Below are positions 27,349-30,413 of a DNA stretch of 64,000 bases, piece by piece. This stretch comes from Venatoribacter cucullus (GTDB lineage: Bacteria; Pseudomonadota; Gammaproteobacteria; Pseudomonadales; Oceanobacteraceae). Where the stretch lies: positions 558,001 to 622,000 of the forward strand of contig NZ_CP046056.1 of NCBI RefSeq assembly GCF_016132445.1, written 5' to 3'. Numbering within the stretch: position 1 is the first letter of the stretch; each line of letters begins with the position of its first letter. Below the pieces are notes generated by a model. That model did no database searches, had not been told where the DNA came from, and saw only the letters and a program-made list of their open reading frames with translations. The position numbers and the translations under genes were made by a program.

Positions 27349-28259
27349 TGTTGCTCTCCGTAGCGTTGGCCACCAGATTGTTGCTGGTAACAGACCGGTA
27401 CTTCCTGCATCCGGCTGTGGTTCTGGTTGATGTATTGACGTACCTGCTGCGATAACAGCGCGGGCATAATTTCGATCTGATTATTGCTGCTAACGTCACA
27501 AGGCACGGTACCAGAAAGACAATGCGGAAACTGCTGTTGCCATAAATATTCCTGCCACTGTTGTTGTTGCGCTGCCGGCAGTGGATGAAAGTGAATCCAT
27601 ACCTGCTGGGCGGCAATGACTTCACGGGCCAGCATCAGTTCAGCCGGCTGCAGGTTAGCAGCAAAATATTCCACCCGTATTTCAGCGGCGCCCAGGGCAC
27701 AGGCACAAGCCAGGGTATCCAGCTCGGCTTGTTTGTGGGTGGTGGCCAGTAATAATACCGGGCCACGGTTGTGACGTTGTTGCTGGGCGGCGACACAGGC
27801 CAGTTTGCGTTTCAGCAGGGCTTCAAAACATTTCAGCACCAGCGCCTGTTCGGTGCCGCTGCGTAATTGCTGCATTACCGGTTGCAGACAGCGTTCGTAA
27901 TACACCGCCAGCGGATAAGTGGCGAAGCCCTGGTTCCATAATTCATCCAGCCGCTGACTGTGCAGGTGGCGCGCTGCCTGCAGAATCTGCTGCTGCAGTT
28001 GCGGCCAGTCATCGTCATTTTGCGGGTCGGGTTGCTGGGCTTCCTGCAATAACATCCGCACCTGACGGATCGGGTAGCCCTGATCCAGCCAGTACAGAAT
28101 ATGGCGCACGTGTTCCAGATGCTGCCCGGTGTAATAACGGTGCCCTTTGGCGGTACGTTCCGGGGCAATAATGCCGTAACGCCGTTCCCAGGCGCGCAGG
28201 GTAACCGGGTTAACCCCGGTCAGGCGGGCAAATTCACGGATGGGGTAAGTGTTATTCAT
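27345..28259 (-). CDS. MerR-family regulator of the LitR/CarH type, cobalamin ligand apparently lost
   Basis: 304 residues. N-terminal MerR HTH (PIREFARLTGVNPVTLRAWERRYGI, then HRYYTGQHLEHVRHILYW). A helical region follows, then a cobalamin-domain-like Rossmann segment (VLLLATTHKQAELDTLACACALGAAEI is my alignment to it, in pieces). CarH-type photosensors have E-x-H there; I see H-x-Q, so the lower-ligand histidine seems replaced. It overlaps the genes on both sides. Probably represses or light-gates its own operon through the TGTACA boxes upstream; the signal is not evident from sequence. Confidence 0.85.
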   Translation of the reverse strand: MNNTYPIREFARLTGVNPVTLRAWERRYGIIAPERTAKGHRYYTGQHLEHVRHILYWLDQGYPIRQVRMLLQEAQQPDPQNDDDWPQLQQQILQAARHLHSQRLDELWNQGFATYPLAVYYERCLQPVMQQLRSGTEQALVLKCFEALLKRKLACVAAQQQRHNRGPVLLLATTHKQAELDTLACACALGAAEIRVEYFAANLQPAELMLAREVIAAQQVWIHFHPLPAAQQQQWQEYLWQQQFPHCLSGTVPCDVSSNNQIEIMPALLSQQVRQYINQNHSRMQEVPVCYQQQSGGQRYGEQQ

Positions 28260-29254
28260 ACCGAATTCCGTAAGCCCAGTGCATGCGGGTGCGGGTTCAG
28301 ATACACCTGCTCGACGGCGTAATGCAGTAATTCCTGATGCCGGCCCAGATGATGTTTCAGCAGCGTCAGCGGCACAATTAACGGCACAATGCCGGTGCGG
28401 TACTGGTGAATTAATTCGGTTAATTCGGCTTTGTCGTCGGCTGACAGCAGATTCTTCAAATAACCCTGCAGGTGCATCAGGGTGTTGCTGTGCATTTTCC
28501 GGGTCGCCGGATTAGTTAAGGCGGTCATTAATTGCAGAAAATATTCATCGGCAATGGCGTGCAGATCCTGGCCGCGTAAATTCGCCAGCAGCTGCCCCAT
28601 GGATTTGTAGTGTGCCTGGCTGTGCGCCATCACCAGATACTTATAGCGGGAATGAAAGGCAATCAGATCTTTCGCGCTAAAGTCGCTGGTGCGGAATTGT
28701 TGCCAGTCGTAATAGGCGAATACCCGCATCATAAAATTCTCGCGTAGGCCGGCGTCGTTTAAACGACCGGCTTCTTCAACCGGCAATAACGGATTGGCGC
28801 GGGTAACGGCATCGGCATAAATACCCCGGGCAGTTCCCTCCGGGTGCCCATTGGCCAGATAACGTTTAACCCCGAACAAACCACAGCTGGGGCTTTTCTG
28901 CATAAAAATATAACCGCACAGCTGGGTTTGCTGCTGCGCCTGAGCATTGCCGTAGGCGGCTAAGGCATCGGTCACATCAATACTGCTGTCGACGGTCCCG
29001 AGCGCCCGCACCTCGGTATCGGCCGGGGTCTGACTGACCAGGCGGATCGGCTCGCGCGGCGTGCCCATGCCGATGGCGACTTCCGGGCACAGCGACACAA
29101 AATCGAAATACTGACTGAGGGTGTCGGTACAGAAGTGCGAACGCTTGTGCGAACCGTTGTAACGGACTTCATGGCCCATCAGACAAGCACTGATACCCAC
29201 CGGGATGCGGGGAAGGGGTGTACTGCTGTGCAGAGAATGTGATTGCGGTGCCAT
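28256..29254 (-). CDS. DUF523 plus DUF1722 protein (YbgA-like)
   Basis: 332 residues. DUF523 at the N-terminus (PVGISACLMGHEVRYNG, LCPEVAIGMGTPREPIRL, KSPSCGLFGVKRY) and DUF1722 at the C-terminus (FHSRYKYLVMAHSQAHYKSMG, with HMHLQGYLK-like ending). Genes of this kind sit next to photolyases in many bacteria. Function unproven; DUF1722 has been linked to thiouracil/tRNA desulfidase-like activity for DUF523. The ATG at 29254 is used since upstream codons overlap the promoter. First gene of the 12-gene operon. Confidence 0.85.
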   Translation of the reverse strand: MAPQSHSLHSSTPLPRIPVGISACLMGHEVRYNGSHKRSHFCTDTLSQYFDFVSLCPEVAIGMGTPREPIRLVSQTPADTEVRALGTVDSSIDVTDALAAYGNAQAQQQTQLCGYIFMQKSPSCGLFGVKRYLANGHPEGTARGIYADAVTRANPLLPVEEAGRLNDAGLRENFMMRVFAYYDWQQFRTSDFSAKDLIAFHSRYKYLVMAHSQAHYKSMGQLLANLRGQDLHAIADEYFLQLMTALTNPATRKMHSNTLMHLQGYLKNLLSADDKAELTELIHQYRTGIVPLIVPLTLLKHHLGRHQELLHYAVEQVYLNPHPHALGLRNSV

Positions 29255-29255
29255 T

Positions 29256-29351
29256 TGTACAACCTGTGTATCAGTTGGTGTATAGGTTATTGTGGCGCGC
29301 AAAAGTTCTACAAGTCAACAGACTTTGTACAAAAATTTGGGGTTTTGTATA
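29256..29351 (-). promoter_or_regulatory. Promoter and TGTACA-type operator cluster of the photolyase operon
   Basis: On the minus strand TTGACT (29313-29318) and CACAAT (29289-29294) are 18 bp apart and would start transcription near 29282. Hexamers related to TGTACA lie at 29256-29261 (TGTACA), 29279-29284 (TGTATA), 29307-29312 (TCTACA, at the -35), 29326-29331 (TGTACA) and 29346-29351 (TGTATA); the last two are 20 bp apart start to start. LitR-type regulators of Pseudomonas are reported to bind paired TGTACA-like hexamers, so the MerR protein encoded in the operon is the obvious candidate. Confidence 0.6.
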
Positions 29352-29363
29352 AGGCTAAGTGAG

Positions 29364-29971
29364 CCAGCCCTGCCGGGCTGGTACGGCCGCCGCTGCCGCG
29401 GCTGGCCTATTGCGGGCTACGCCCGCGGGTATTGCAAGGGGAGGTATCCCCTTGCGAACCCCTCTGGCCCGCGTCCCAGCTGGTTCCTCGTTTACCAAAC
29501 CCAATTGAGCATACGCGGCCAAGGGGCATCCATGCCCCTGGCCACTCGTTTGGAGTCATCCAAACGATGCTATTGGCTTTGCCAAACTTCGGGCTGGAAC
29601 GAATGGGCCGAAACAACCGCAGCAACCTGAAAGTGTTTTAGCGGCCTGCGGCCGGATGTTGGCTTTTGGTTTTGCGCGCACAGCGCGCCATATTCAATAT
29701 TGCCGGCGAAGCCGCTGCGGTTTGAATCGCGCCTATAGCACGCCGAAATGAACCGGCATTGACAGGCCCGCCCGGATGGACCGGGCGAGGATCGTGGCGC
29801 ACGACGCGCCTTACGATCCGTGGCCGTCGGCAATGACGGTGAATGAGGAAGCACGTGCTATACAGCGCAAAAGCAGGGGCGTGGGGATAAGATCCCCACA
29901 TCCGGGGAGCAGGGGCGGAGCCCCGCATCAGCTGACACGCAGTGGCAGCTTAAACAGCGGCTGTAAGCCGC
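29364..29971. repeat. Non-coding island of tandem perfect hairpins
   Basis: About 600 bp with at least fourteen separate inverted repeats and no convincing gene. Clear ones, stem arms then loop: 29364-29381 (7 bp, TGCC); 29385-29407 (9 bp with a bulge, TGCC); 29411-29425 (6, TAC); 29433-29454 (9, GGTA); 29517-29543 (11 with a bulged A, TCCA); 29547-29566 (8, GTCA); 29573-29585 (5, TTT); 29642-29654 (5, TGC); 29674-29688 (6, ACA); 29769-29787 (7, ATGGA); 29789-29819 (12 with a TT bulge, ACGAC); 29824-29839 (5); 29881-29899 (8, AAG); 29912-29924 (5, GGA); 29957-29971 (6, GTA). It could be a large structured RNA, a cruciform-rich recombination or replication element, or a decayed mobile element. 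Confidence 0.75.
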
Positions 29972-29989
29972 AAAAAGCCGTCAGCGGCT
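29972..29989 (-). terminator. Terminator at the cbiX stop codon
   Basis: Read on the minus strand, AGCCG-CTGA-CGGCT is followed by TTTTT; the stem includes the last cbiX codons and its stop. A longer 7-bp pairing GGCAGCT (29944-29950) with AGCTGCC (29991-29997) encloses it. Confidence 0.65.
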
Positions 29990-30379
29990 GAGCTGCCTGA
30001 CCACCACCTGGCGGATGGCTGCCGCCACCTCCGGCTCCAGCCCGACCGGGCTGTGCAACTCGATGCTCACCACCAGGCCGGCAGCCAGTAACTCCGCCTG
30101 CAGGGCTTCCAGCATGGCCGGTACGCCTTTGCGTAAATGCCGGCCAGCGGCAAAAAACAACGGCAACACGTCGATATGGCGGTAGCCTTCCTGCACCAGC
30201 CAGCGGATCTGCTGGCACAGTTCCGGTTCGGCCAGTTCCATATAGGCCAGTTCCACCCGGGCATGGTTTTCCTGCAGTCCGCTGCGGATTTGCTGCAGCA
30301 GCTGGCCGAAGGGTTCCAGCCAGTGTGGGTCACTGCTGCCGTGGGCGAGGAGCACCGAGGCGCGGGTAAGGTTGGTCAT
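29981..30379 (-). CDS. cbiX: Short CbiX-type sirohydrochlorin cobaltochelatase
   Basis: 132 residues, the size of the single-domain CbiX-S enzymes that work as dimers and insert cobalt (or in SirB-like cases iron) into sirohydrochlorin. Metal-site histidines are His13 (VLLAHGSSDP) and His81 (FAAGRHLRKGVP). The ATG at 30379 is chosen because TGGGA precedes it by 7 bases. It is separated from every other corrinoid gene by more than 15 kb, so a siroheme ferrochelatase role cannot be excluded. Confidence 0.82.
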   Translation of the reverse strand: MTNLTRASVLLAHGSSDPHWLEPFGQLLQQIRSGLQENHARVELAYMELAEPELCQQIRWLVQEGYRHIDVLPLFFAAGRHLRKGVPAMLEALQAELLAAGLVVSIELHSPVGLEPEVAAAIRQVVVRQLSR

Positions 30380-30413
30380 AGCAGATCCCATGGCGTCAAA
30401 GTGGTTAAGAGTA

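Follow-up and report, generated by a model that had tools for sequence, protein, structure and literature searches.

The window analyzed here, a stretch of 64,000 nucleotides, contains a hairpin-rich island that is bordered on one side by the cbiX stop codon and on the other by the promoter region for a DUF523-DUF1722 (2-thiour_desulf) protein. An earlier note on this DNA, made from the letters alone, had placed the island at 29364..29971 between cbiX and a photolyase promoter. These coordinates were right to about 10 bp (the island ends at about 29978), and so was cbiX as a neighbor; on the other side, however, the next gene is the DUF523-DUF1722 gene, with MerR-like and photolyase ORFs lying beyond it on the minus strand (by eye). 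The features of the locus are as follows:

28256..29302, minus strand: DUF523-DUF1722 gene, flanking (PF04463, PF08349); coordinates are those of the longest ORF, and the true start may lie further in
29364..29978, no strand: whole island, one copy of a dispersed repeat (from fold, genome search, and hairpin count)
29364..29455, no strand: left array of end hairpins (29364-29381, 29389-29402, 29412-29426, and 29434-29455)
29490..29587, minus strand: left arm, "F" type, a stem and then a three-way junction
29522-29539 and 29546-29567: hairpins of the F arm, the former with the loop AUGGAU on the minus strand
29599..29728, no strand: variable middle, with a T-rich tract and small hairpins (29642-29654 and 29674-29688)
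29729..29868, plus strand: right arm, "H" type, a long stem with an internal loop and a three-way junction
29769-29787 and 29789-29819: hairpins of the H arm, the former with the loop AUGGA on the plus strand, the latter nested
29881..29971, no strand: right array of end hairpins (29881-29899, 29912-29924, and 29957-29971)
29981..30391, minus strand: cbiX, flanking (PF01903); the island begins right behind its stop codon

With hairpins defined by a perfect arm of at least 5 bp and a loop of 3 to 6 bases, 15 non-overlapping hairpins were counted in the island, covering 245 of 608 bases, compared to a mean of 3.0 (standard deviation, 1.6; maximum, 9) in 200 dinucleotide shuffles of the same sequence. 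None of 209 window tiles of 608 bp, some of which overlap the island, reached 15 hairpins (highest count, 13). Folded as RNA, the island gave −323 kcal/mol (z score, −9.03), and none of 20 shuffles was equally stable; a comparison of minimum free energy with shuffled sequence had been proposed in the earlier note. No gene-like ORF was found in the island: those of at least 60 amino acids that overlap it reach at most 112. The description in that note of at least 14 tandem perfect hairpins, each different in sequence, and of only short, implausible peptides is borne out by these counts; of its range of 5 to 12 bp for the hairpin arms, the lower end held, but the perfect arms found span 5 to 9 bp. 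A scan of 29250-30050 for terminators detected one site versus 1.4 in shuffles, which is no excess.

Repetition of the whole island is a feature visible only on genome search. Against its own genome (2,827,114 bases, one contig), the island yielded 130 matches at an E value of ≤1, its own included. These were merged to 30 sites, with about eight stray matches of 17 to 30 bp left out of the count; two of the strays (L058 and L059) gave nothing at an E value of ≤1e-3. At least one arm was present at 28 of the 30 sites, and two sites had end hairpins only. The larger matches, roughly 70 to 99% identical block by block, are pieced together from modules, some of which are inverted. Complete copies have a common plan (by eye) of end hairpins, arm, variable middle, arm, and end hairpins; as read from an alignment of 10 copies, conservation is highest in the arms and lowest in the middle. 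In other copies, the left-end and right-end sequences match each other on opposite strands. The sequence TGTACGCCAGCCC has nine exact matches in the genome, none of them more than about 30 bp from the end of an island. Two islands bear it exactly at both ends, inverted, and a third has one end with one mismatch. When one mismatch was allowed, 31 matches were detected versus 3 for the reversed control, for a pattern chosen from island ends and with several of the 22 one-mismatch matches lying away from islands. Terminal inverted repeats (TIRs) occur in this genome as TGTACGCCAGCCC and in elements of sister species, described below, as IS4-type ends. The copies are dispersed and carry no transposase inside, as do MITEs. 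No target duplications (TSDs) were seen around the copies of this genome (by eye), and the window copy had no match in plasmid records.

Several variations on the common plan were observed. In five copies (L034, L041, L049, L050, and L054), a hairpin-rich insert of ∼75 bp lies within the AUGGAU loop of the F arm, lengthening 5 of the 20 F arms in this genome. A similar insert occurs in another arm of a congener element (L070); in both cases, hairpins are nested in hairpin loops. Another insert (TTACTCGCTTCGCTCGCCCTTCGGG...), located between base stem and arm, is shared by L033, L035, L042, L048, L049, and L052. In L041, L050, L052, and L053, the middle contains long runs of a 6- to 7-base unit (TTTTGG type), a sign of slippage, and the islands at L037, L046, and L047 have REP-like units (GTAGGAGCGGGCCATGCCCGCG, GTGACAAAAATGTCAC, and variants) next to or within them. 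The window genome, at 2.83 Mb, has many repeats; its congeners (G001 to G008) measure 3.9 to 4.4 Mb.

The neighborhood from cbiX to the DUF523-DUF1722 gene is kept in all eight other genomes of the genus that were searched. In all eight, the cbiX spacer lacks a match to the island and measures 96 to 507 bp, compared to 678 bp here. The island is an insertion at the cbiX spacer. Gene contexts of the 30 sites, assigned from greedy longest ORFs, were convergent in 16 cases, tandem in 14, and divergent in none, so that every site lies behind at least one gene. As a yardstick, the 21 window spacers longer than 50 bp comprise 4 convergent, 14 tandem, and 3 divergent ones; relative to these, the convergent excess has a P value of 0.02 and the divergent deficit a P value of 0.064.

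Five of eight congeners and none of 46 genomes from other genera had DNA matches to the window copy (E value of ≤1e-4; 10 candidates scored per genome), and all of the matches fall within 29839-29943 of that copy. Most of the 12 matching congener loci are hairpin islands (by eye), with L061 ambiguous. One congener element (L068) was matched in all nine genomes of the genus, window genome included, at an E value of ≤1e-5. Homologues, which the earlier note had suggested searching for, thus exist both dispersed in the same genome and in congeners. In sister species, elements of 567 to 569 bp have TAATGCTGTTCACTTAA at one end and its reverse at the other. Among 10 TIR-bounded candidates from these species, five have a direct repeat of 11 to 12 bp at their ends: four hairpin elements of 567 to 569 bp (one with one mismatch) and one insertion sequence (IS) of 1,423 bp. 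The remaining five, including the second copy of the IS (L133), gave no TSD. At three hairpin elements (L064, L068, and L081) and at the IS copy L132, both flanks together read as one intrinsic terminator (by eye); the flanks of L062 gave no clear terminator. IS4-type ends, duplications, and terminator targets are thus shown for some sister-species copies.

The IS, found in genome G007, has CAATGCTGTTCACTTAAG ends and encodes a 444-amino-acid protein with Nterm_IS4 (PF13006) and DDE_Tnp_1 (PF01609) domains. Copy L132 interrupts an intrinsic terminator (by eye) and is flanked by a direct repeat of 11 bp; none was seen at copy L133. The ends of this IS probably resemble those of Escherichia coli IS4. 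At an E value of ≤1e-30, the IS4 transposase was detected in one of the nine genomes, with both copies in G007. At this threshold it was not found, and with it no related autonomous IS, in the window genome or in the genomes with TIR-bearing hairpin elements, where drafts may lack it. Matches to IS4-type ends in the window genome numbered five versus four for the reversed control, as expected by chance, and the ends of its copies (TGTACGCCAGCCC...) differ from the IS4-type ends.

No Rfam family exceeded its cutoff in the window. The best match in the island was to TwoAYGGAY (RF01731; gathering cutoff, 43 bits) at 29509-29571 on the minus strand, with 32.1 bits against the cutoff of 43; the right arm was absent from the Rfam matches of the window. 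At 10 congener loci, eight RF01731 matches were found at an E value of ≤0.05, three of them over the cutoff (48.0, 45.2, and 45.1 bits). At an E value of ≤0.01, all nine genomes of the genus had matches, compared to none of 14 controls, and the cutoff was exceeded at 30 places in four of the nine. Only three matches at this E value were detected among the 49 arms of the window genome, the best at 39.8 bits and none over the cutoff. Judged by score, sister-species copies pass 43 bits and the window copy fails; judged by loops, none of the 49 window-genome arms shows the two AYGGAY loops of the family, each having at most one ANGGA loop. An alignment places the right arm alongside congener arms with RF01731 matches. 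In it, the window genome and the sister species have arms with shared base stems and internal-loop sequence, while the other stem letters differ on both sides (row L120_2311 of this alignment is a false pick of the pattern). On this alignment, the window arms appear related to TwoAYGGAY through homologous congener arms. The earlier note knew of no described family with this pattern, a statement that is wrong for the core of the element, given the congener arms over the TwoAYGGAY cutoff.

In a sample of the class, 23 of 369 gammaproteobacteria had RF01731 matches at an E value of ≤0.001, 15 of them over the cutoff; under the stricter filters of this sample, the window genome had no match at that E value. 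A deeper search of the same 23 genomes gave 1 to 36 matches each, with 17 over the cutoff. Hairpin islands were also seen at several RF01731 loci of other lineages (by eye). In another gammaproteobacterial family (L279, L281, L283, L302, L303, and L306), large TTTTCTTG..CAAGAAAA hairpins lie on either side of the arms, and some loci have TTTTCGCACGCC/GGCGTGCGAAA ends, possibly belonging to another TIR-bounded element.

We compared the orientations of neighboring arms. Among 246 RF01731 matches listed in 28 gammaproteobacterial genomes (for the genus, all those at an E value of ≤0.01), at least 33 pairs of neighbors lie less than 600 bp apart, and 32 of these listed pairs are arranged minus then plus at distances of 79 to 263 bp, with one opposite. 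The pairs come from 10 of the 28 genomes and from four genera; the other 18 genomes have no pair among the matches listed. In the window genome, 20 of 22 neighboring arms are likewise minus then plus, and both exceptions fall at L037, one of them being a double call of an F arm that the 49-arm set leaves out. Dispersal, insertion at the window site, and pairing of the arms are all matters of direct observation in this genome.

The motif GGGGCGCAGGGGC..GCCCCGC was considered as a marker of the family and rejected. Among the 80 of 117 stretches listed, it also occurs in Streptomyces, Clostridia, and others. It is no marker because all 15 motif-bearing genomes tried from outside Thalassolituus are without a TwoAYGGAY match; the three Thalassolituus genomes match. 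Hairpin-rich intergenic islands with this motif were seen in genomes without a TwoAYGGAY match from Clostridia MAGs (L137, L144, and L151) and Streptomyces (L140, L143, and L162).

Across 55 distinct ANGGAY hairpins (27 from the class, 23 from the genus, and 5 from the window genome), 356 of 440 cells are Watson-Crick pairs, compared to 178.3 in shuffles (maximum, 205), a share that is inflated because only hairpins above a set level of pairing were included. In 162 cells, both sides of the stem had changed, versus 49.0 in shuffles (maximum, 67). The compensatory stem changes that the earlier note asked for therefore exist, and its suggestion that hairpin density reflects selection for structure agrees with the conserved fold of arms whose stems vary on both sides, in hairpins picked for pairing. 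Of the 49 window-genome arms, 31 carry ANGGA within a sense-strand hairpin loop and 2 within one on the other strand; 18 arms lack an ANGGA loop, and no arm contains two. These loops are also present in other gammaproteobacteria. Among stem mismatches, G-T and A-C numbered 51 and 50 overall, and 17 and 21 in the inner 7 bp, a set containing some hairpins expected by chance (each shuffled replicate of one strand gave 11.6). Broken down by set, with 7 of 38 listed class and genus arms dropped for an incomplete locus, the counts were 12 and 16 in the genus, 13 and 18 in the class, and 25 and 10 in the window genome, whose lean comes from closely related copies, the sense of some of which was chosen by motif. 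Since the two kinds of mismatch are about equal overall, these counts do not show selection at the RNA level.

CsrA, which binds ANGGA loops, is encoded in all nine genomes of the genus. TwoAYGGAY and RsmY belong to a common Rfam clan, CL00106 (Rfam table), and abstracts from the CsrA literature refer to GGA motifs. Binding of CsrA by the arms is a plausible prediction from these sequences.

Among known systems, TwoAYGGAY resembles the arms in its three-way junction and its two hairpins with AYGGAY loops, and sister-species arms pass its cutoff; it differs in that the arms of the window genome stay below it. A tandem-GA stem is reported in the passages of PMC4333381 on the family. By eye, a TGAA/TGAA internal loop is present in the window-genome arms, including the right arm of the island, and in those of one congener subfamily; in another congener subfamily this stretch is paired. 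The table row for TwoAYGGAY in PMC2864571 reads "RNA? y, cis-reg n" and names the human gut, gammaproteobacteria, and Clostridiales. The passages on TwoAYGGAY in five papers (PMC4333381, PMC2864571, PMC11701678, PMC7657543, and PMC11661157) mention no pairing, repeats, transposition, TIRs, or TSDs, which is weak evidence, as subscription papers and supplements mostly lie outside this set. MITEs offer a second likeness: QMITE1/2 of Coxiella burnetii, as described in passages of PMC5896051, lack a transposase, have TIRs, direct repeats, about 50 copies, and a stable fold, and are in part transcribed. The hairpin elements likewise carry no transposase and have TIRs, a stable fold, and, in four elements of sister species, direct repeats. 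QMITE2 differs in measuring 150 to 190 bp with a GTAG REP, and those passages name no TwoAYGGAY arms. Terminator-like MITEs are named as a possibility in a passage of a review (PMC10969869). The GTAG- and CGTC-tagged REPs and BIMEs treated in the main text of PMC3733652, units of 20 to 40 bp that are RAYT-linked or without a known transposase, are similar in forming palindromic pairs of opposite orientation, mostly behind genes, between convergent or tandem genes; neither "TwoAYGGAY" nor "Thalassolituus" occurs in that main text. Lastly, the IS4-family IS of G007 shares TIR ends (CAATGCTGTTCACTTAAG) and the 11-bp direct repeat at L132 with the hairpin elements, but it carries a transposase and they carry none.

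We consider the island to be, probably, a non-autonomous, MITE-like, terminator-seeking mobile repeat with paired TwoAYGGAY-type arms. At its core would be two arms with three-way junctions, placed back to back on opposite strands and enclosed by inverted arrays of small hairpins. Such an element would spread as DNA, with transposase supplied in trans. For some sister-species copies, the terminal repeats and the 11- to 12-bp target duplications point to an IS4-type enzyme, and a similar transposase may have moved the copies of this genome. The element would insert, without harm, into intrinsic terminators or directly after stop codons; its own end hairpins may replace the lost terminator, to which the terminator scan of the window lends no support. 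The arms would be maintained by selection or gene conversion. Because A(N)GGA loops are kept on one strand, the likeliest function of the arms would be binding of CsrA/RsmA by read-through transcripts. Of the readings offered in the earlier note, a mobile element and a constrained structure are supported together, the former by dispersed copies, the site empty in 8 of 8 congeners, and the terminal repeats and target duplications of sister species. An origin of replication or transfer, or an integration site, found no support: the window copy has no match in plasmid records, nor a congener element in plasmid or phage records.

Two alternatives share much of this explanation. A DNA-only parasite, in which a transposase or replication would use the hairpins as cruciform or single-strand signals, and the likeness to TwoAYGGAY would reflect DNA structure rather than RNA function, has the mobile part in common with our explanation and differs in the role of the arms. 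The absence of an overall G-U excess in the stems, the exchange and inversion of modules, the extra hairpins nested in loops, and the TIRs and TSDs of sister species all fit such a parasite, and a recognizer of single-strand DNA could equally account for the loops. The strand specificity of ANGGA (31 of 49 arms on the sense strand versus 2 of 49 on the other), its recurrence in other gammaproteobacteria, and the lean of the window-genome set to G-T (25 versus 10) argue against it, and we regard it as possible but somewhat doubtful. A stronger form of our explanation, a mobile CsrA/RsmA sponge in which each copy adds decoy sites to read-through transcripts and so tunes the Csr regulon, strikes us as rather unlikely. 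It would be in keeping with the clan shared with RsmY, with CsrA in nine of nine genomes and the retention of ANGGA loops, and with the proposal, in the passages of PMC4333381, that TwoAYGGAY binds CsrA. It accords poorly with the 18 of 49 arms that have no ANGGA loop and the lack of any arm with two, with the missing overall wobble signature, and with the 5 F arms, out of 20, whose AUGGAU loop is lengthened by an insert.

The island could also be a functional cluster of bidirectional terminators, of host origin and merely duplicated, given that all 30 sites follow one or more genes, with no divergent pair among them, and that other copies show a hairpin plus TTTTT (by eye). However, the site is empty in eight of eight congeners, the scan found one terminator-like site against 1.4 in shuffles, and the island is far larger than such a role needs, which makes this origin quite improbable. 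Least probable, with hardly any weight in our judgment, is a REP/BIME-type array moved by a RAYT (Y1) transposase. Its intergenic position behind genes and its paired inverted units are like those of the REPs in the main text of PMC3733652, but the arms measure about 100 to 140 bp with three-way junctions, compared to hairpins of 20 to 40 bp, and elements of sister species have DDE-type ends and direct repeats of 11 to 12 bp. It is this TSD in sister species that makes the REP/RAYT reading unlikely.

A mobile repeat with paired TwoAYGGAY-type arms suggests that the TwoAYGGAY RNA family travels inside mobile DNA. The family was listed in 2010 (table of PMC2864571) and is still called "relatively unexplored" in a passage from 2025 (PMC11661157). 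Its members occur as divergent pairs in multicopy, terminator-seeking repeats and behave like parts of mobile DNA rather than single regulatory genes, which changes what needs explaining. The CsrA-binding proposal made for the family in passages of PMC4333381 is here placed in a mobile context. The many natural copies and mutants, with lost ANGGA loops and loop inserts, provide material to test that proposal. It is a distinctly unlikely extension that, across Gammaproteobacteria, TwoAYGGAY is the back-to-back cargo of widespread terminator-seeking mobile elements acting as CsrA decoys. If this were true, transposition itself would rewire a global posttranscriptional regulator.
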